From: Anas platyrhynchos
Taxonomy: Eukaryota > Chordata > Aves > Anseriformes > Anatidae
Direction: 5' to 3'
Assembly: GCF_047663525.1 (NCBI RefSeq)
Contig: NC_092591.1
Coordinates: 35,373,001-35,437,000, forward strand
DNA: 64,000 bases
A program made the position numbers and the translations under genes. The notes beneath the pieces are model-generated. The model saw only the letters and a program-made list of their open reading frames with translations, was not told the origin of the DNA and ran no database searches. Every line of letters begins with the position of its first letter. Within the stretch, counting starts at the first letter, position 1. Positions 4,275-46,159 of the stretch are shown piece after piece.

Positions 4275-4634
4275 GGAAAACAACGCGCCCTGAGCTGCTG
4301 GAGTACGCCAGGCTGGTTGCTTCTCACCACCGAAGGCACAGTGCACGGCTGAGCGGAGGAGGAATGGATGCTGGCACTGGGGTATAACGATAAGAACCAG
4401 CCACATTGCTTAAGCATATGAGACAGAAGGAAACCTTCACCTGCAGCAAGCAAGGTGCTGTCAGCCTGTAAACTTTACAGAGACATCTCTTAATTATTTA
4501 AAATTAAGTACGGACAGGGCTCCTGTTGTGTTTCTTTCTCCTGTGAAAAATACTAAATTTGCAGCCAACTTTTACACGTATCATTAGTAAAGCACAAGCA
4601 GAGGGGAAAAACGCTGCTTTAAAGAAATCTGAAG
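4275..4634 (+). other. ZFYVE1: Probable ZFYVE1 5' UTR with short upstream ORFs
   Basis: An acceptor-like ccgctttag ends near 4,274 and another (aaatttgcag) near 4,562. Either could begin the exon that carries the ATG at 4,635. If the first is used, the leader contains three overlapping short ORFs: 4,364-4,387 (7 codons), 4,368-4,421 (17 codons) and 4,418-4,471 (17 codons), all ending before the main start. If the second is used, these are intronic. The exon border is uncertain. Confidence 0.45.
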
Positions 4635-5132
4635 ATGAGCGCCCACACACAAACTGCAGAGAAAGGGCAAAACACGACACTCCTGTGCCAGGAAAGCTAT
4701 GTTTGCAGTGGGACAGATGAAGCAATCTTTGAGTGTGACGAGTGCAGGAGCCTACAGTGCCAGCGCTGCGAAGAAGAGCTGCATCAGCCGGAAAGGTTAC
4801 GGAACCACGAACGGACCCGTATAAAACCTGGCCATGTCCCTTACTGTGACTCCTGCAAAGGTGCCAATGGGAATATAATGCACGCCAGCATGACGGGGTC
4901 GAGACAGATAGCGGCTGTGAGGTGCCAGGTGTGTAAAATCAACCTCTGCGTGGAGTGCCAGAAGAGAACACATGCTGGGGGGAACAGGAGGAAGCACCCT
5001 GTCACCGTGTACCATGCTGGCAAAGCCCAAGAGCAGGAAGAGGAGGAGGGGATGGATGAGGAGACCAAGAGAAGGAAGATGACAGAGAAAGTTGTGAGTT
5101 TCCTCTTGGTGGATGAGACTGAGGAGATTCAG
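4635..5132 (+). CDS. ZFYVE1: ZFYVE1 first coding exon, residues 1-166
   Basis: It encodes the start methionine and the N-terminal Cys/His-rich zinc-binding region, with repeated CxxC pairs such as CDEC, CQRC, CDSC, CQVC and CVEC. An acidic Glu-rich stretch and a basic KRRK patch follow. It ends in phase 0 after EEIQ at cag|gtaaga. A 9.3 kb intron follows. Confidence 0.95.
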
Positions 5133-8100
5133 GTAAGAGTTGCTGTGGCCTCTTTGACAGGTGAGATCCTCAGTTCTGCCTTAGTTTAACATAGTGCTGG
5201 GATGCATGGTTAATTCTTGAAGTGTAACTGACAGTAACAAATTTAGGGCCAGGAACTCCTGTTCTCAGTGAGTATCTTGGGCAAAAAAGACAGAGCCTAA
5301 GGCTGGCCTTGCTCACCAGTTCCTCAAAGGGCAAGTTCACGAAGACCTTTTGTGTGGTAAGAGCCTACTTTCAGAGGCTTGGTAAGTGAAGCTGGTGAAG
5401 GAATGGACTGTGCTGAGACACGCACAACTAAGATAAGAGCTCGGGATGCTGATCATTCCTGAACAAAACTGAACCGAGAGGATTGCAGGAGGTATCCTGC
5501 AATGGGAGTGCTGGCTGCCAATCTCCTACCGTATGACTGGGAGTGGGCACTGTACCAAGCTGTGCTAATGGGAAAACTGAAGCCCCCTGCTACCCTCCTT
5601 CACCACCAGTAAATCCATATGATTTTTAGGAACAGGATAAACTATAAATAAGGGTTTTGTGGGGAAAATCATAACTGTGTGCCATCCAGGTCCTACAGAC
5701 ACTGTGGTTAAGCAGTGTTGCTAGTCACAGATACTGTTCTATGTCAGCCTTTTACACAAAGAGGGGGAGATTGGCCATCAATTTGGGACAGGTTTGCTGG
5801 TAATAATGATTTAAATATTTGTTGGCAGTCTCTCAGGAACAGCCTCTCCGACTTGATTTTAGAGTCTAGCATGCAGTATGTGCATTTATTTAACTTTTCT
5901 GTTGGCTTTTATATTTGGTAAGCATAAGCACTTTACAAATGTAAAAATATTCTGTGCATACAAAAGCAGCAACATGTGAAAGTCACAAGGCAGATTAGTT
6001 ATCCAACTAAAAACTTGGTTTCATCTTTGGGCTTCCAATTTGCAGCTTTCATGTTTAGCCTTGCTCAGGAGATACTGAAAGAAAACGTAGTCACCTGATG
6101 GCTCAATATCTGGTTGCCCTAATTTGACATATTCATGCTGCTGGTGGTAAAAAGATGTGTACGGAGGCAAAAGGGGAGAAAGGATGATAGTGACTGTGAA
6201 CTATCATCACGGTTTCAGGTGTGGTAGCAGTCCTAAATTGGTATGCTTTCCCTCAGCACATGTGTTGCCATATAATGCATGTCAGATGCAGCTATTGCTG
6301 TAAGATGCAGGCTCTTCAATAATCTTCACCTGGCCACTAGAGCAAGCTCTGAAGTGTTTCAGAACATGGCTGTCCTAGAAAGTTCTTCACAAGCTGTGCC
6401 TGGGTGTGTTTGTACTGTTTTAAGTTATTTTTATACTCCAGAATCTGTAAGCCTTACTGGGGCAGACTTTTGGCTGCCTCTTGGGAGCAAGTGCATTACT
6501 ATTTCAATATCATGGGTGATAAAGCCAGCTTCCTTATTGGGACTGCAATGGTCCTTTATCAGATCATAACAATTAGATCTGAACATGGTTGGAAAAGCTC
6601 TCTGAAAATGATCCTTCCTCTTACTGGGATCTTGAGTCAAGAGCTCTTCCATCTCAAGTGATTTTCTCTTCCTCATAGCTGACTGCTTGCCTGACAACTC
6701 ACAGCCAGTCTCAGAGCAGTCTGAGAGTTTTCAATTACAGGATGTTCTGGCAGCTGAAACTTTGAGTTCTTGCTATTATGGTGATATTTCTGCTAGTGAG
6801 CACGAGAACCTTTATTTAGAGAGCGTTGTCAGATTATGAGCTCTCAAGACATGTTCTGTAGCATCTTTTGCCCTTGATAATACTGAACAGACAATGCAGG
6901 TATAAGAAAGATTTGAAGTCTTTTGTGCTCATCATTAGCAAGATGATTTCTGATTACTTAAGAAGAAATCTTTAGTTCCTTATTTAAACCAACTTATTGT
7001 CCAAAAAAAATACCAAAGCAGTAATAACCTGAAATGTGAAGATCCAGGGTTTGAGGGCATGTGGCTTTTTAAGCTTGAGCAGCCAGGAGAAGGCTTGATC
7101 AGAGTTAGAGAGTGCAGCTGTCCTCAGGCGTCTGATTTTTGACCTTTGGAACTTGAAGATTGTTATCTTGGTTAGGAAAGCAGAGAGAAAGCTGCTGATT
7201 TGCTCTCAGCAGCACATTTGGCCCTACCAATGTTAAATGCGAGTCCTACAAAATTGGGCAGAACAGGTTATGCTCCTGAACAAATGGGATGGATCAAGAT
7301 ACTTGCTGATGTATACAGGCTTACTAACATCTGACCTGGAAGTAGTACAATAAGATGGGAATATGGGACAAAGACTTTTTTTTTTTTTTGTTATGCTGTG
7401 GAAATTGAAGTTGCTCAGCTCAGGTGGTTGTGTCCCATCTCATCATTCCCTTTGGCTTCTAGGAGCCGGTGATTCTGAAGCCTGAGGATATTTATAGTGT
7501 GTAAGCAACAGCAGCTGGCTTCAAATCCAGAAGCAGTGTAGCTTCACCCATAAGGAGCTGGGCCTCAGCAAATTAGTTGAGCTGAGAGGTGTTCATCTTA
7601 GCTTGGGCTCAGCACTGCACTGTTAGAGCTGTGATAATTCCAAGATCTTCATAACTGTCTTTGTGCCACGTTGCACAGATGCGCTGGCCTGCTCAGAGCT
7701 AGCTTGGAGCTTTTTGCCCTTTGCAGACATAGCCATAAGCTGAAAAAGCTGAGGACTTTTTAGGCTTGTTTCAGATTTGCTTGGAGTTGGAAAGGTCCCA
7801 TTTTAAGCCACCAGTTGTGCAGCAGTTGTTTGTAGAGAACCGACAGCAGCTTAAGCTTATCCCTGTAAAATGCAGGCTTCTCTGTGACTTCTTCATCGCA
7901 GCACTTTATCTGAGCACCTCAGAAAGACGTTATCTCAGTAAAAAAATGCTGCTAAAGGTAAGATCCAAGCTCACTGCAAGGCTGTGGAAGAAGCAGAGAG
8001 GTGGTTCCTCAGGGAGGTCCAACTGCTGCTGTCTCACACACCACACAGCGTGGCATCTTGTGACTTAGTCCCCAGCCATCCTGACCTACTCCACAGATAT

Positions 8101-14100: not shown

Positions 14101-17100
14101 GACCAATGCTGCTGAGAGTGTCTGCCACGCTGCAAGTAGCCGTTTTGGCAGACATAGGAGAAAGGTTTTGCTCTCATCTCTAAAAGGGATTGCCTCTGGG
14201 AATTGGGTAATGTTATAGAAGAGGTTACACTGGACAGATAATCACGGTGAGGCATCACTTCCAGAATGGCTGCGTGATGGACCAGCTTGCATCCCATTGA
14301 TGTGTATGTGTTATAAAGCTGCTTTCTAATATTTTGCTTTGGTGCTTCAAAAACTTCATACAAAATCTGAACAGGAAGTTATTGCTCTCGTTAATCTTAT
14401 GACTCCTGAAGCCAGCTGTGTTCTGAGTTGTCTACTCTAATTGCATGGTTATAATATTTATTTTTTTTCCTCAAGGTAAGGAATGAGGAAGAATTTATCA
14501 AGAAACTGGACTGCAGTCCTGACCAGCATCTAAAGGTGGTGTCCATCTTTGGGAACACGGGGGATGGCAAGTCTCACACCCTTAACCACACTTTCTTCTA
14601 TGGCCGGGAAGTCTTCAAGACATCTCCAGCACAAGAGTCCTGCACAGTCGGAGTCTGGGCAGCGTACGACCCTGTGCGCAAAGTGGTGGTGATTGACACA
14701 GAGGGCCTTCTGGGGGCCACTGTGAACCTCAGCCAGAGAACGCGGCTGCTGCTGAAGGTCCTGGCCATCTCTGACCTCGTCATCTACCGTACTCGTGCTG
14801 ACAGGCTCCACAATGATCTCTTCAAATTCCTTGGTGATGCCTCGGAAGCTTATTTAAAACATTTCACTAAGGAACTAAAAGCTACGACAGCCCGATGCGG
14901 CCTAGATGTTCCTCTGTCAACGTTGGGTCCAGGTGTCATCATCTTCCACGAGACTGTGTACACCAAGCTACTGGGCTCTGGTAAGTAGGCAGTAAAAACT
15001 GCTCACTGCTGTGTAACTGCTGCCTACAGGTTATCAGGCTGCACTGATTGTTCAGTGCTCTTTGCTGTTGTGTAAGAGATGTGGTTTGAGTTTTGCTCGT
15101 GCTTGTCCCAGTCTGTGAGCCAGGCTGTGGAAGGAGCAGAGCGTTCTCTGATGGTGGTCTGACTACCCTAGGTCAGCTGGAATGATTCTCTTAGCCAGCT
15201 GAGCGGTGGCACTGAGTGGTCACCATGGGAGTTGTGCCAGCCACAGGGAGGGTCACTGCACAGGATCAGGAGTATGGATGATACGGCAGACGAAGGTGAA
15301 AACTGAGACACCCTGGGATTTTGGCAGGGATATAGAGAGTCCTGTTGCAAAAGAGAGAGGGGGGAGGAGGTGAGAAGCAAAGCAAAACAAACAAAAACCA
15401 GAAACAGAATATATGTAGGAAATAGGAAGAGCAAGAACAGTGAAATTGATGAACATCAGTACTCATGGTACCCTCAACCAACTCTTTTAATTTCTGTGGA
15501 CCAAGATTGTTCTGAGGCTGGTGTGAGGTTGGGACTGAGACTGGTGGCACAGGGCTGATGCTGCTTTTCTCTGCAGCCACGTTTGATGCAGACAAAGCAG
15601 CAGGCCTGGCACAGTATTATTCCCATCGCTTTCAGTGTTCTTCACCAACATTTTTAACTTGGCTCATGTCGTACTGGATTATGCGTATTTAAATTGTGTG
15701 GTTTATTTGCACGTCTGAGTGAAAGGCACTGTCCTATGGAAGTCAAAGCAAATTTTGTTTTTGACTATACAGGATGTAAATGTCTTTCCTGGCCCTGTTT
15801 TTTCCATGCTTCAAAAGGCACGGTGAAACCCTCCTTCATTCTGTCTGATTCTTTGATGAGCAAAAGCCCTAATGAATGGACTACAATGCATTAGGTTCAG
15901 TCCTGCCCTCTGTGTAATGCCACAGTAGCACCCTGCTGGCCCATATTTTCATTCTTGCCTTCCTAATGGGTGAGATCTTGAGCTAGTAGAATGTGGCATT
16001 CTTTATGCTGATTATTAGAGTGCCTTCTTAATTACTTTGAACTTACCTGCCATGGCAGTTCCTTTTCTTCCATAGCAATTTGCTGATCAGCAATGGGGAG
16101 TTTTCTGTAGCTGTTGAAATTTGCTATTTCAGCAAGTCAGACTGTGACCCACAATGATACTGGCACCTGTGTTCAAAGTCAGGGTTGTAAAAAAATCTGT
16201 TTTATGATCCCTCCTGATCATGGTATGGATAGGAAAGAAACCTTTTAGCGCGTGGATTTACATCAAGTTGCAATTACCCATCTTGGGAGGTAATGGCAAG
16301 ATAAATGTATTTGTGTAGTTTTAGGGCAGGGAAGAAGAGAGGCCTGTGTTATTCTAAAATGTATATGAAATTCTGAAATGTACGTGGCCAGTTAAAATTC
16401 TCCCCTTTGTACAAGGGGCTAACAAACTTGGTCTTCCTCGCTATGGAGCTGGCGTGCAGAATAAGCAGCCCATGTAAGGTTTGTGTCCTCCACTTATCAG
16501 GTGTTAGAAGTAACTATACCAAGTTCTGGTCTGCTGAGAGGAGCTAGCTAGTGTGTTGACGTGGAGTTGCCTTATGTTATAAATTGTTTTTATATTTCCA
16601 AACCCAGATGTTTCCAGCTTTACCTGTGGATTTGCAGTCTCTACAAAGCGTGGTATTAGGATCTAAAGCTACATATCAAAAAAAAAAAATAAAAAGACTG
16701 CATTTTGGAAAAAGTATTTCTTTCCTTGCTTGTGAAATATAATGATAGCTGCATTTCGGATGTATTAGAAGAATTAAGAAAACTAGCACAAGGTAGCATA
16801 TGAAAGCAGTGTGCAATTTAAATATTATCTTAAACCATCTTTTTTTTATATACTTCCTGATACTCTTACATACAGATCATCCTTCAGAGGTTCCTGAGAA
16901 GCTCATTCAGGATCGCTTTCGGAAGCTAAGCTGTTTTCCTGAGGCTTTCAGCTCAATCCACTACAAGGGAACAAGGACATACAATCCTCCAACAGATTTC
17001 TCTGGACTTCGGCGAGCTGTGGAGCAGCAGCTGGAGAACAATACAACTCGGTCACCTAGACAGCCTGGGGTTATCTACAAAGCACTAAAGGTAAGTCCTC

Positions 17101-33709: not shown

Positions 33710-33903
33710 TCAGTTATAGGAGAAGTGGTAGAGATCCTGTTTGACAGCCATGAGCAAGCCAGGGACTCCTCGTCTACCTCCCAGTCTTGAAGAAAACACC
33801 ACGCTGGGGATAGCATCTTTGGAGGAGGGGTGGGGAGAAGGGATGGTTCTAAGCAGATGGGCATCTTGGAGGCTCCAAATTCTGGTGTAGCAGTCCTGAC
33901 CAA
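33710..33903 (-). CDS. DCAF4: DCAF4 exon 13 (last), residues 436-499
   Basis: It encodes [20 protein letters not shown], then [12 protein letters not shown] and [18 protein letters not shown] before the stop at 33,712-33,710. This is the final WD40 blade. The acceptor on the minus strand is cctttccag. Confidence 0.96.
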
Positions 33904-36900
33904 CTGGAAAGGAAGTACACCAGCAGTCAGCATCATACAAGAAGTACTTTACGTGGCTCTGCAAGACTATCATCAAAGAAGCAGACGGTGATCTACAGAG
34001 AACAAAGCGTAAACATTTCTATACATCTTGTGGGCAAAGTGCTTATCAATACTTTACAGAACAAGATATACATGTAAAATACTGACTACTGCAAAAGTGG
34101 CAAGAATACATATTTCTTATTAGGTTATAAGAGGTATAATAAATCAGTATTTAGAATGCTTTACTCGTTATCAGGCAAAAAAAACAGCTTGTCAAATTAA
34201 GAATTATTCTCATTATTCCATCACTCATTGAAAAACCCAAGGACAGCAGACACTACACGTACAAGAACTTCAATAAGTCTAGCTATACTATAAGGATTTA
34301 GGAATTTTGCTTCATTTATTGTTACCTTTCCTTTTAGGAAAAAAAAAATCAAGATGTAGCCATGAGTATTCAAAATAACCCGAGTGACAGGAACTTTACA
34401 GGGAGTTCAGCGTATGTGCCAGCACTTCAGTCCATCACCACACTACGCCCTGTAGCATCAAAGAAGCCTATACATGGTCTTTGGTCTCTATATAGAGATA
34501 TTACTTCAAGTCTCCTGTTAATACATTGCTTCCCTGACCTTCAAAATCCATTATTTTCTGCTCTACTTTTGGGCCACGCTGTGGAAAGGATAATGGGACT
34601 TCCTGAACATAGTGGATAAAGCACTTGAGAGATACGCAGGAGCGATTACAGTAGGTGTGCATCCATAACATTTTAGTTTTAGTAGTTGATTACAGTACAT
34701 CTAAAGCAAAAGTTCTGATGAATTTTGAAGAATTAACAGCTATCCAGTTTGCAACAGCTGTAGCTAAGAAATAGCCTTCAAGCATAAGAAAATCACTGCA
34801 CTTACAAGTAGAAGGGAAGAAGTCAACCCACCTGCTGTAAGAAGTCCTTCCTCCTCATTTACATGCAAAGGGAGAATAGCATATTCGTTGTGATGACCTT
34901 GGTACTGTTTCACGCACTTCACTGTTCTCAGGTCCCAGAGTTTTATCTGAAAGTTGAAGTATTTTTTCACAAGAGGATACATTAACAAAGCAGAGATCAC
35001 CTGCTGGTTGGTAAATAAGTGGATCTAGTAGTGAGGAGCAAAGACAGCCCAGTGGGGAAATACCACCCAGTTCTGTGCCGCTCTCCAAAGAACAGCCACC
35101 CACCCTCAGGTCTGGAGTAAGCACCTGTCATTGCCCAGATACCTAAAGGAACTAACTGTGTATCCCACAGCAGCAGAAACCTACCTTCCCAGCCATATCT
35201 GCTGCCATCAGGTAGTGTTCAGCCTCGAGAAGCCGAATAGACGTAACTGCCGAGTCATGGAAGAGGCGGATTGCTTTCCAACTCTGGCCCTTGCGGTTGC
35301 GCTGACGCACGTCGATGCTGAAAATCTCACCTGAACGGCAGCCATTGTACAGCATTGGGGTCTGGAAGAATCCAAAAGAAAGAGGTGCACTGCATAGCAT
35401 CTGAAAAGGCTTAGTACCCACTAATGACAATGCTCTGACACAAATGAAGGTTCTTTCTACCTGAGTGGCAAACTGTTGTGCCAAGACATCACTACTGGTT
35501 CCAAATGTCTGTCGATGCCCTGTCACTACATTGGTCACGAGAACTCGTCGTGTCAGGCCTAAGAGAGACAGATTATGTTCATTTAGTTGTAATTTGAGCT
35601 GCAGGTGGGAGATTAAAGCAAGAAGTTTTTCCTGCTGAGATAAAAGTGGTTGCTAGCCTTGCAGATCACCTGTGCTGAAGCAGTTGTCTGCTTGTGGATT
35701 CAGGCACCAAGCACAGGACCAGGCAGTAGATATCTTGAAGCTGCACAACATTCCAGGTCGATCTCCTAGGAGAAATAAATACCACATGAAACATCCATAA
35801 AATGTAAGGACAGGATGATAACTCAGGAAGATTCTCTGGACTTCCATGCTTCTTTGAACATTGTAATTAGAAGCAGAGACAATGATAGCCAGTTAATACT
35901 CCTGTGCTACTCAAGAGACATGAAACAAAAGCAGGACTTCACTGTTGTAAGCTGAAGACTTACAGCCTACACATATACACGACTGTGAAATTTATTCATT
36001 AGTCAGAGGTCTGACCATGATAGTAAAGATCAGAGAAGAGGAAAGTAACATGTGCTTTACAGCACTAAGTAAGCCATTTTTTAAAGACAAGTGGGCTGGA
36101 AACACAAAACATTTTCTTTAGAAGCTGTAGTTTAGCCAAAGCCTAACTTAGAAGTTCTATAAATAATGAAGATGGAAGAATTAAAAAAAAAAAAAAAAAA
36201 AAAAAGTATGGAGGGGAAAAAAAAACAAAACACAAATTAATACTGTCTCTTCCCTGCTTCTCCTGGCCCATCGGTGTTTTTAAAACAGTCTTCAGTGAAG
36301 TAACAGCACTCTAGATTTGATTCTTACTCATGTAGCTCCTGCACGAGGCCTACCAACCCATGTACTTTAACCGCACAGTTTTCACTTTATGGCATGTCTG
36401 CCACAATCATACAGATGTCAGGCAGCACAGGTGACATGTCTAAAACCATGCTGCAGATGGAAGTTTTACTTTTGTTTTGAAGGTACCAGCCTGACTGCTG
36501 TCTCCAAGAACACAGAAAAAAATATATAGATAATACAGCTACAGCCATCAGATTTATGATAAAGGATTTTCTAAATCAATCATGCTTACACAAAACTAAG
36601 CATGATGTCTAGTACAAGGAGCCATGGGCTGAGACATTTACCAGCTTTCCACCTATGATTAATCCACTAAGCACAGGGAGTACCTACGGTGATAAAATAT
36701 CCTGCAATGATTCTAGGGAGTCTATAAGGAAATTTGAGTACTTCTTGTGTGCTGTTTCTGCATGTTACTTAAAAGGCCAAGCTACTCATATGAATAATCT
36801 CAAATGTTTACTTTACAAGCAGGACGTTCTCCTGCCAAAGTGCAACATCAGCAGGAACTAAAAATAAACTAGTGCTTTGAATACTGCTTGCTAATTAATT

Positions 36901-39900
36901 CTTAAGGTAAGTTCTTTCATCTGTTCATTTCTTATACTGGACTTCTTCAGGACATTCTAGATTTTTATTTTTTTTTTTTATACAAGAATACAACTACTGA
37001 AACCAACTACTGAAATGTGGACATCTTTCTCTTGTGCTCTTTGCATTACCATAACTACTATCCAAAATTGGAAAAAAACAACACATCCCACCTGGGTTAG
37101 TGCTGCTGAACAATGATGCTGGAAGCAAACTGGCACAGCCTGGAGTTTCTGCAATTCCCATGAGGCACAGCTTGCTGGAGCGAGTTAAGGAAAACAAAAA
37201 TTTCTTCCTAGAATGGAACAGGCTGCCTAATATTTATAGCTGGGAAAAGTAAGATGCTCTGACACAGTTGTAGTTCATAATGCTTCCCGTTCAGTAATGT
37301 CTTCCAAGAACTTTGTTGTGCCTTACGCTTCACAATTAATTCTTGACACTTCCTTTCTTTCATAGGATGAGCTAGAAAGAACATGACTGTGTATATGTAA
37401 ATACACCATACATGCCGATGACACTGCATTGATATAGAATTGTTTTGACGGAGATGAGCTGGAGAAAGGGTTACATACACTGAGGAGGCAAGAGTCAATT
37501 TAGAGTGCATTGAAATAATTCAACAAAATTATAGTGGGTATAAATAGGTTTTGAAACTGCTTTTCAAGTTTAGTGTGGTAAATCTGTGTCATAGATAGGG
37601 AAAAACATTGAATAACCAAGCAATCTCCAACTCCTAACCATCTCTAAGCAAGACTGATGAAATCCTGCCACCTTCTGGATCAGTTCTGAATTGCATAACT
37701 ATCATAACTTACATAACTATCAGTATCCCTTCCTCTTTTAATAGCCACTTTTAATGCCACTTCGATAGACCTTCTGTTGCTTGTCATCTCCCACTTTAAA
37801 ATTCCATTTTTTTCCTCTCTTTTGTGACTTTGTGTCATCCATTTGTGCTTCCTCTACTACACATCAACTTTTCTTTTCTTTTGAGATAAAGCTGCAGGAC
37901 ATGCTCTGGCACTGAGCTCTGCCACTTTCAATGAGTTGCTGCCCTTCTCCTCCCCTCCAGTCAACATGGCAATGGTTTACAACAGAAACCAAACAACCCC
38001 CTTTCAAAGAGCTCCGCTTTTTTAAAAAGAAAGTTAGTTGTCTTGATTCTCTCTTTTGTTGTTTTATTACACTGGAACAGAACTCCATACATCTGTAACA
38101 GCATGATACATCTGTTTCACTAGCCCCAACAGCTTCCAATTTAATTCATTTTGGACAACTTTCCCAGTCTTCTAGAAAACAACATTTCTGGGGCAACTAC
38201 GTGAGATGTCTTCTGAAAATGTTCTGTTCTGTGCAGCATGATGCAGAATAGTCAAAGCAGCACTGACATTTTGCTTTTGTAAAAGGATATAAAACATGAG
38301 AGTCTGGATGTGTCAGTGATGCCCAGCACACAGAATTCACCTTCAGACACAAGAAGACATGGTGTTTGTGTAGACCTCATACACAATTCACGAAAGGGCA
38401 TTTCCATGCAAAGATGGCATGAAACTACGCACTGGGCACACTTCCTTAGCTCATGCAATAGCGTGGTAGCAGCACACGAGCAGTTTATCCCTATTCTCCT
38501 CTTAGGTGTACAGAAGAGAGGGCAGCACTGGGAAGTGCTGGGAAGGCACCAAGCACATCCTATTATTTAAGGGATCATCTTTACTAGAATCTGAGCATGA
38601 AGAGGTTACACAAATCTGGTTTAAATATTCTTCATGTATACAGATAAACACATTTTCCCGAAGTTATTTTAAAGAAAGAAGCATACAAATCTTACTTTCT
38701 CAACATAGTGTTTTCAGCTATGGCTGAACGAAACCCTGAAGCGCTATCCTTGGAAGGTGATACGTCTACATGGTCTTCTGTTCCGATGGCAGCATAGCAT
38801 TCCTGATAAATAATGCTGGTCCTCAGGACTATCCGAGGCAAGTTTACTGCGATTCTGTGACATCACGCTGCTAGATTCTTCCTTTCTCTCCTACTAGCCC
38901 CTTCCCCTCATGCATTTCCCCACGTGCCTACCAAGCAACAGCGTTTTGAGAATGCAGCAATTGAAGGAAGCAGGAACAGAACACAGTACTTTGCGGTTTG
39001 TGAAGTAGAGGTTGTCATACATCTCTACAGTGAGAGACTCCTTCCCCAAACCACTGAGGTTGATGATTCCATATTTACACCCTCCGTGCTCTACGTCGTT
39101 CACGGTGAATATCCGCTCACAAGCAACATCTGCCTGTAAAATAAAAGCATCGTTGCACTTAGTGGAAACTTGCTGGAAAAAATGGCTTGAGGCAGCTGCA
39201 TTAGATCTAAAATGGAGAAACATTAATTAGTCACTTTAACACCATCAACTTTCCATTCATCCTTAAAACAGTGGTCAACACCTTTTTTAATGCAGGCATA
39301 GAAAAATTATCATTAAAAAATAAAATTATTCAGTCCTTACACAATAATAAAAACTCTTTCCCATTATATCAGATACTTCTCTGGTTGTTATTAGTAAGCA
39401 CAGACTGGTATCAGTAGAGGACTCAAAGAACAAAATAGTAATTAAATCTTATCAAAATGAATGTGGAATTCTCCTATGCTGCTTAAGTGTAGGAGATTCT
39501 CCTCCTGCTGGATCACGTCACAGTAAAAAGGATGCTGCTGTATTTCAACTTTTATAACACTAAGTTTCCAACCCTGTTCTGGCTCCAGCTACCGATGCAG
39601 TGCTCTGTTTGTAAGCCTAGGAGCTGATCCTCGAGAGCCTCCTACAGGAATTATATTTGGTCCAGAAACCTTTTCTGCACAAACACGCCACCAAAACCAG
39701 TAGAAACTGCCTTCAGAGTATGAGGTGTAAAATCATTACAGTCATTTACATAGATTCCCTATACTACAGGCTTTGCTATTCCCCAGTTCTCTTCAATTTT
39801 CCTCTTCTTCCCCTTCAAAAAACCCACCATACTAATTATCCACTCAATTCCTGTTTATTTCCAATAGGACAAATTGATCAGCTCCCCAAATCGCTTACAT

Positions 39901-42900
39901 ATCCAACCTTTTCATCATTTTCCTCTTTAAGGAAGGACACCCTCTTCCTACCTGTTTAAAAACTACTGAGCTCAGATTTTGAGACCTGACCCAATGGGAA
40001 TAATGCACCTTTGAAAGCAAAATGTGACATATAGGATTTGATCTCAAGATCCTCAGTTTTCACTGAAGACAGACTTTCTGTATCTTAAAAGTTTAAGAGT
40101 TATCGTAACGTACCACAACTATTTTAAAATTGTTGGTTCCAGCAACCGAGGAATCTGGACTGTGAATTTCTATCTTCCTCCTCTGCATGCAGTTCACTTT
40201 TAGTTCATGGACCATCCTGTAAAAGCAGGTGGGGCAGGAGGAGAGAAGGAATTCAGGTAAGCCTATGTTTAAGAATTTTTGATAAGACAGTCAGAACTGC
40301 TTCTCAGTCACAGAAGATAAAATGCCTGAAAATTAGCATGCTACAATTTCACTTACATAACCATTGAATTTCATCCCATCATTTTGAACCCCAGCACATC
40401 TCAAGTAGCAGGAACAACAACATAGCAAGCCACTAACTTCCTTTCTACACTGTTATTGTACTTGAGCATAAAGATTCTAATGGTGGGGAAAACAACCACA
40501 TCAGCTGAAGAGCACTGATCCAAAGAAAAGCTGAACTGTGTTCATAGAGCACAATGTGGTAAAACAGCATGTATTGGAAAAAAAAAAAAAAAAAGTGAAA
40601 GTTCAAACTCCAGTTATCTGAGATCGGGACATACCTTCCTCATCTCAATTCTCACCACTTCGGAAATGATAGAAGAATATAACTTTTTTGTTATTATAAA
40701 TAACATTACTCTGTCCTACGTGGAAGGGTGAGGGATGCAAAAAAAAAAAAAAAAAAAAAAAGCAACAACTGACAGGAATGGTTGTACGAGTAGCAGAACT
40801 TGATATTGCAAACAGAAGACAATTCAGATTATTGTACCTGCAATAACTCGTGGAGCTGAGCAAACCTAGCTGCCTTTTCTGTAACAGCATGGATGAATTT
40901 AGTCCAGGCCTTGTTGTTTTCTGGAAGAGAATAAAATGAAAGTGTTCTCAGTTATTTTCTTGTTTATGATTCAACCGTGGCCATTGGTCTTTGATATTTG
41001 GGATATTCGGGTAACTTCTTCCTCGAGCCTATGTATAATAATATTTTCAAGTCTATAAAATGCATTTCAGCAACATTTCCTTGGTCTACTACAGAAAGTA
41101 CACAAGAAAGAGAAGTATTCTTGTGAATCTACTCTTGCGAATTTCAAGTGCTTCTATAAATACAAAAACTGGGAAAAAATCTTTTGTTTTTGCTTAACAC
41201 AATCAATGGTACTAGCTTGAGGTGTGAAGTCACCTTGTGTTTTTACTCTGACACCTTAAAACTTATTATATAGCAAAGCTCTATCACCACAAGACTGCTG
41301 TTAACGTGCAGTCTTATTGCTGCACTAAGTTTCTTTTCCATTCATCACTTTTTAAAATTGCATGTGAACACTTTATAAATACTAGGGAGAGCAAAGGATA
41401 GAGAACTTTGCAGTGTTAGGGATTAAGAAATCTCTTTGATAATGCTCTGTCAAAGTATTGAAGAGTCAGAACATTCATATCCAGGAGGCTGATTCAGATG
41501 TCTGATTCTATAACCAGATTTTGAGAAGAAATGTATCTTCACAGTTCCCATTAACAATTACATGGCCGGCAGCTGTATAGGAACTATGAAAACTAAACTT
41601 CTCATGGAAACAGCTTAAGAGAAACCCTCCACCACCACCATCCTCCCACCAAAAACCAGCACTTTCATAATGAAGATGGAAGAGCTGAATTGCTGCTTGA
41701 AGAACGAACTTTATTACCTAAGGAAAAATATACTATACTCCTCTCCCAAACAACAGCATATTTAAGGTGAGCTTCAGACACTGATTTGCTAAGTTATAAG
41801 ACTTGGCTTTCAAGCAATTAAAACCACCCTCCCTAGGTATTTTACTCAGGTTTCAGACGTGTACTATTGCTATCAACTCTGCTGTAACACTTTATGTCTG
41901 AAAAGCCTGTATACTTTCCATTGTAAACTTGAAAGTATAAAGATAAGACTAAATTTGATGTCACCTGTACGAAGGAAATTCTTTGTTACAACACTGTTTC
42001 CCCAAAACATCGTTAGTATTATTTCCTCAGGGTCTAGGTACACAGTCTAAATATTTATTAAACACATGGAAAGCCTACAATTGAGATCCCACTTTGCCAG
42101 TTCACAGCAGGGATCTGAAACCTGGCATCCAATGTCCTGACTCAACCGTAATTGTTGGACAATTTGTTATTCTGAGAGTTCCTGTCTCTTTACAAGTTTT
42201 TTTTTTTTTTTTTTTTTTTTTGTTTGTTTGAAAGTGACTTCCTTTCATTCCTGTGTGGAACAACCAAACAAAAGACTTCAAGAAATATAAATTCTCAGCA
42301 AAAAGAATTTTTTGCTTCTTCAGACAGCTTATGGGACTGTACTACAGTCAAAAAAAACCTAAGGATTTTAGCTCATCATCTGTCTTCAGACTGAACACAA
42401 CAAAGGATAATTGCAGTCTCTTTCAGAACGTACCTTGTTTTGTTTTTCTTCCTCTTCTAAGAGTCTCAGTCTTTTACTCTCCATTGCCTTGTGCTGAATA
42501 CTCTCCTTGGTGAGTGGGTTGCAGTTATTATGCCCAGGCAGTAGGCGAAAATAGCGTTTTTTTTCTGGGTCATAGTAAAATCCTGGCAGTTCTAAAAGGT
42601 AGTAAAAATAAACAAAATCAGATGCATAGCCAAATTTATTTGTTACTCTTTGACATCCCACATCTTCATGGAAATGTCAGGCTCACAAGGCTCAAAGTTC
42701 TTGCTCCTAGTTGGTCCCAAGCATGATAGGCAGACCAGGAATAGATGGCAGCCACTTAGAGGAAAAAAGGATTTTATTCAGAAGAGGTGAACACTAACAT
42801 CTTTGAGGGTTTTTATTTAAACCTTTATCTACTACTATAACCTGCATTTGAAGTAACCTCTTTTTGCTGCTGCTTATAATTCATCTCCCTGTCAGTATGT

Positions 42901-45723: not shown

Positions 45724-45853
45724 TTCTCGGCGGGCCCTGCCGCCTGACAGGCAGCTCCCTCAACAAATAGGAGGGCAGCGCTCCGCCTGCCTCGCTGCCT
45801 GCATCTCGAGGAGGGGCGGGAGGGAAATGGCGGCCGGCGGGAGGCGCGCGCGG

Positions 45854-45974
45854 CTCTGAGGGGGCTCTGAGGGGGCTCTGAGGGGGCTCTGAGGGGGCTC
45901 TGAGGGGGCTCTGAGGGGGCTCTGAGGGGGCTCTGAGGGGGCTCTGAGGGGGCTCTGAGGGGGCTCTGAGGGGC
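45854..45974 (+). repeat. 11-bp minisatellite, about 11 copies
   Basis: The unit CTCTGAGGGGG repeats every 11 bases with no visible interruption from 45,854. The last copy fades at about 45,974, and a stray related copy occurs near 46,017. The regular G5 runs separated by 6 bases could form G-quadruplexes. It lies about 200-350 bp upstream of the likely DCAF4 start. Confidence 0.97.
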
Positions 45975-46159
45975 TGGGCGCCGCAGCAGCCCCTTTCCTC
46001 AGCTCTGGGAGGCTTGGCTCTGAGGGGACGTCCCAGCTGGAACGGTTGCACTTTACTTTTACATAGCAAGCTTGCTATGGTGCTTGACGTGAGAGTAACT
46101 TTGGTGAGGTAATCAAGGAGTAATGACTTCAAACTAAATACGGGCAATCTGAGGCTAGG

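Follow-up and report, generated by a model that had tools for sequence, protein, structure and literature searches.

A probable AT-AA terminus in a minor intron of the Anas platyrhynchos DCAF4 gene

In this analysis of a 64,000-nt window (the whole stretch of DNA that was analysed), an intron of the DCAF4 gene at 38290-37172 on the minus strand was found to be almost certainly of the U12 type, as judged from its sequence elements, and its main 3' end is probably AA. From the sequence elements, reading frame and family fit shown here, we infer that the intron is removed by the minor spliceosome and that the AA end is used in the RNA. On the preferred AT-AA reading the intron is 1119 nt long (37172..38290, minus strand) and represents a well-bounded likely example of this terminus, with an AG and an AA lying 3 nt apart past one branch site and no AC. 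The intron thereby offers a clean natural setting in which to test 3' end choice by the minor spliceosome, and annotation limited to GT-AG or AT-AC introns would be expected to err at it.

U12-type signals in the DCAF4 gene

The coding region of DCAF4 was modelled at 33710..42592 on the minus strand as 11 exons in one open frame, with an approximate 5' limit, upstream of which further exons may lie. Its spliced product matched PF23761 (Beta-prop_DCAF4, the Pfam DDB1- and CUL4-associated factor 4 beta-propeller) across positions 1-353 of 353 with an E value of 2.2e-216 and a score of 717.9 bits, against a cut-off of 27, which identifies the gene as DCAF4. All introns in the model but one are GT-AG (nine of ten), the exception being the intron at 38290-37172. 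A PF23761 search of the 1.26 Gb, 42-contig genome found no second DCAF4 copy or retrocopy with the spliced junction; all eight matches (18 candidates scored, E <= 0.001) fell inside the window's own gene, such counts being minimum values where repeats or large families are concerned. The 50-nt exon upstream of the exceptional intron was absent among those eight matches, probably because it is so short. The best explanation is that DCAF4 is here an ordinary gene with one minor-class intron.

U12-type introns are recognised by consensus strings at the 5' splice site (RTATCCTTT) and at the branch site (TTCCTTRAY). The upstream coding exon (38291..38340, minus strand; 50 nt), which joins its neighbouring exons in frame and ends in the two bases TT, closes with ...TCTCATGTTTT and is directly abutted at 38290 by the 5' splice site ATATCCTTTT (38281..38290, minus strand), an AT-class sequence that agrees with the U12 consensus at 9/9 positions and with the U2 donor consensus at 2/9. 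At the other end of the intron, the branch site TTCCTTAAC (37184..37192, minus strand) is likewise a 9/9 match, with A37185 or A37186 as the branch A, and the downstream coding exon, followed by GT, occupies 37092..37171 on the same strand. The first-pass annotation had described both elements, the donor after the upstream exon and the branch site at 37,192-37,184, as perfect, and both descriptions were confirmed.

The exact 9-mer TTCCTTAAC occurs once in the window, both strands counted, and the looser TTCCTTRAY five times, the copy at 37192-37184 included, while the other nine introns of the gene match the U12 donor at 3-5 of 9 positions and the branch site at 5-7 of 9 at best (last 45 nt scanned). 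Under a first-order Markov description of the strand sequence, 0.56 donor 9-mers (RTATCCTTT) and 1.8 branch 9-mers (TTCCTTRAY) are expected per 64 kb, and by the same estimate a donor and a branch site would both be well placed at one of ten introns with a probability of about 3e-8. Taken singly, the donor decamer is uninformative, since its copies in the 1.26 Gb genome (3188 + 3253) are no more numerous than those of a reversed control (3762 + 3765).

Minor introns that begin with AT and end in A plus any base (A-type, or AT-AN) are an established class according to PMC8280824, which also reports that 92% of A-type introns respond to CENATAC depletion and that 84% of human A-type minor introns are AT-AC, so that about 16% end otherwise. 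PMC10639083 names AT-AA as the non-canonical minor terminus most often found in animals, and a passage in Parada et al., quoting earlier work, has a 5' A splicing to any 3' base with C preferred. The earlier description of AT-AA and AT-AG ends as rare was, on these sources, overstated, and the DCAF4 intron belongs to a known kind. It shares with the CENATAC-dependent A-type introns the AT start, the U12 donor, the branch site and an A-N end, both of its in-frame ends at a plausible distance being AN, with no essential difference seen. AT-AC introns of the U12 type are alike in donor, branch site and spacing, but the DCAF4 intron falls outside that group, ending in AA (or AG) with no AC in range.

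Candidate 3' ends and the protein family

Downstream of the branch site the strand reads TCGCTCCAGCAAGCTG, and at a plausible distance two ends in frame with the AT donor follow: the preferred AA at 37172..37173 (minus strand), with the exon starting at G37171, and an AG at 37175..37176 (minus strand), with the exon starting at C37174. Measured from A37185 they lie 13 and 10 nt away, respectively, and from A37186, 14 and 11 nt. The optimum given in the review PMC3584512 is 11-13 nt, and since either A may be the branch point, spacing alone cannot pick between them. No AC was found at a usable distance, as had been claimed earlier; the sole AC between the branch site and the exon (37185-37184) lies inside the branch site itself. 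An end at that AC (37184) would be in frame, but it is 1 nt from the branch A, would add four residues and gave a local peptide score of 104.7 bits versus 116.1. Also rejected were in-frame AT ends at 37160 and 37154, which at 25 and 31 nt exceed the spacing rule and lie inside conserved coding sequence, and the AG at 37171, which cannot be joined in frame to the AT donor.

Comparison with the protein family separated the remaining candidates. The AT-AA product aligned its residues 79-431 to PF23761 positions 1-353 with zero net gap at the 717.9 bits given above, whereas the AT-AG product, one residue longer, scored 710.0 bits (7.9 lower). When the peptides flanking the junction were scored separately, the upstream one (NLYFTNRK plus 16 residues) covered PF23761 positions 78-101 and the downstream one (37170-37093) positions 103-128, so that a single residue should fall at the junction, which is what AT-AA supplies. 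A trial of seven residues at that place ranked Leu best (116.1 bits), ahead of Ile (114.6), Val (114.3), Phe (114.0), Ala (113.0), Lys (112.7) and Ser (112.5), and adding Lys after Leu lowered the score to 109.9 bits, a bare one-residue insertion costing 6.2 bits. The junction reads V-L-L-C with AT-AA and V-F-K-L-C with AT-AG; the AG end would thus put Phe-Lys in place of Leu, and not simply add a residue as the first-pass annotation had it. That annotation had left the choice between AA and AG undecided; both ends are indeed in frame at a plausible distance, but the family fit narrows the choice toward AA. V-L-L-C-L-M, which it had called the human form, was compared here with the Pfam profile of the family. 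The family fit reflects what the family has kept and not the RNA of this genome, and the lineage could have moved to AG.

The mechanism that best accommodates these observations would have the donor ATATCCTTTT pairing with U11 and U6atac and the branch site TTCCTTAAC pairing with U12. For lack of a downstream AC, splicing would then be completed mainly at CAGCAA/G, 13 nt past the branch A, in the second step; the AA end would hold the beta-propeller stretch V-L-L-C-L-M at family length.

Alternative readings of the intron

Several features count against AA, namely that AG 37175 is the first A-N dinucleotide past the branch site, that its approach is pyrimidine-rich (81% C/T over 21 nt) and that branching at A37186, which would place AG at 11 nt and AA at 14, would favour it. 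A U12-type intron ending mainly at that AG, in frame and 10 or 11 nt from the two possible branch As, would give V-F-K-L-C-L-M, and PMC4176328 records human U12-like AT-AG sites, two of which (in NUP210 and CRYZL1) were reported as edited to GT-AG. We nevertheless regard AG as an improbable main end: in addition to its lower family score and the cost of the extra residue, a Lys would enter a hydrophobic run, and AT-AG is disfavoured according to PMC3584512. Appreciable use of both ends, giving two DCAF4 isoforms one residue apart, is somewhat easier to accept but still unlikely, and it overlaps with the preferred AT-AA reading where AA is the main form. The pair resembles NAGNAG tandem acceptors, which are U2-type, in having two in-frame acceptors 3 nt apart at a workable distance, but it is CAG/CAA within a U12-type intron and its dual use is only putative, no sequence feature indicating that both ends are used. 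Published views of such use diverge: PMC6717393 has alternative splicing near minor introns as commoner than formerly thought, whereas the review PMC3584512 describes U12-type alternative splicing as almost entirely absent and is unsure if alternative 3' ends of these introns are regulated or errors. The further proposal that the CAG/CAA tandem yields two forms of DCAF4 whose propeller carries either Leu or Phe-Lys, in a ratio set by minor-spliceosome activity is very doubtful, and a regulated two-isoform switch in DCAF4 is possible but unsupported.

Two other readings would remove the unusual terminus altogether. A single A to C change at 37172 would put an AC at the same place as the AA, so that a base error or a recent polymorphism there, with C as the true or common base, would leave an ordinary AT-AC intron; this is highly unlikely. 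No sign of such an error was seen, and the assembly comprises 42 contigs for 1.26 Gb. Least credible of all, to the point of near-dismissal, is a U2-type GT-AG intron at 38295-37171, which has canonical ends, is in frame (H/LCLM, two residues shorter) and could be picked by an annotation pipeline restricted to GT-AG. Its donor, CAT/GTTTTA, agrees with only 4/9 U2 positions where the model's nine GT donors agree with 5-8, its product scored 705.6 bits against PF23761 (12.3 lower than AT-AA and two residues short), and it would leave the perfect U12 signals unexplained.

Relatives, missplicing and genomic setting

Searches for relatives matched neither one exon's peptide nor the DNA pattern of the 3' end among viral contigs, and gave no match among phage records. 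Among genome contigs a single 30-residue match was obtained, in a planctomycete, and was taken as an unrelated WD-repeat. Solved structures yielded 414 distinct matching sequences at E up to 1; none of the best 60 of these 414 bears the name DCAF4, and their best stretches fall within residues 290-397, away from the junction, so that no structure among those 60 bears on it. In the literature, no paper was found whose main text combines DCAF4 with 'minor spliceosome' or 'U12-type', and the accessible text of PMC2831892 and PMC10853796 does not name the DCAF4 intron. Lists of introns sit in supplements, outside the scope of this main-text search, and we therefore make no claim that the intron is unreported.

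If the intron is retained, a stop is predicted 47 codons past the point where the upstream exon begins. If that exon is skipped, a downstream exon start at 37174 or 37171 would shift the frame, which would be kept only with the AG at 37171 (exon from 37170), at a loss of 17 residues. In-frame joining at that AG (37171-37172, minus strand) to the exon that ends at 38990 would drop the 50-nt exon, and such a skip may serve as a U2-type fallback if the minor intron is left unspliced.

Elsewhere in the window, an Rfam search of its whole length returned nothing above the gathering score. On the strand opposite to DCAF4, open frames at 4623-5186 and 14455-14985 (plus strand) resemble parts of what we take to be ZFYVE1, presumably a neighbour of DCAF4 in human too. 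Upstream of the DCAF4 exons found, at about 45850-45990 (minus strand), lies a short repeat that gives PSEPPQSPLRA-like units when translated, and next to it is sequence in which Gly, Ala, Pro and Arg codons abound, perhaps the promoter region.
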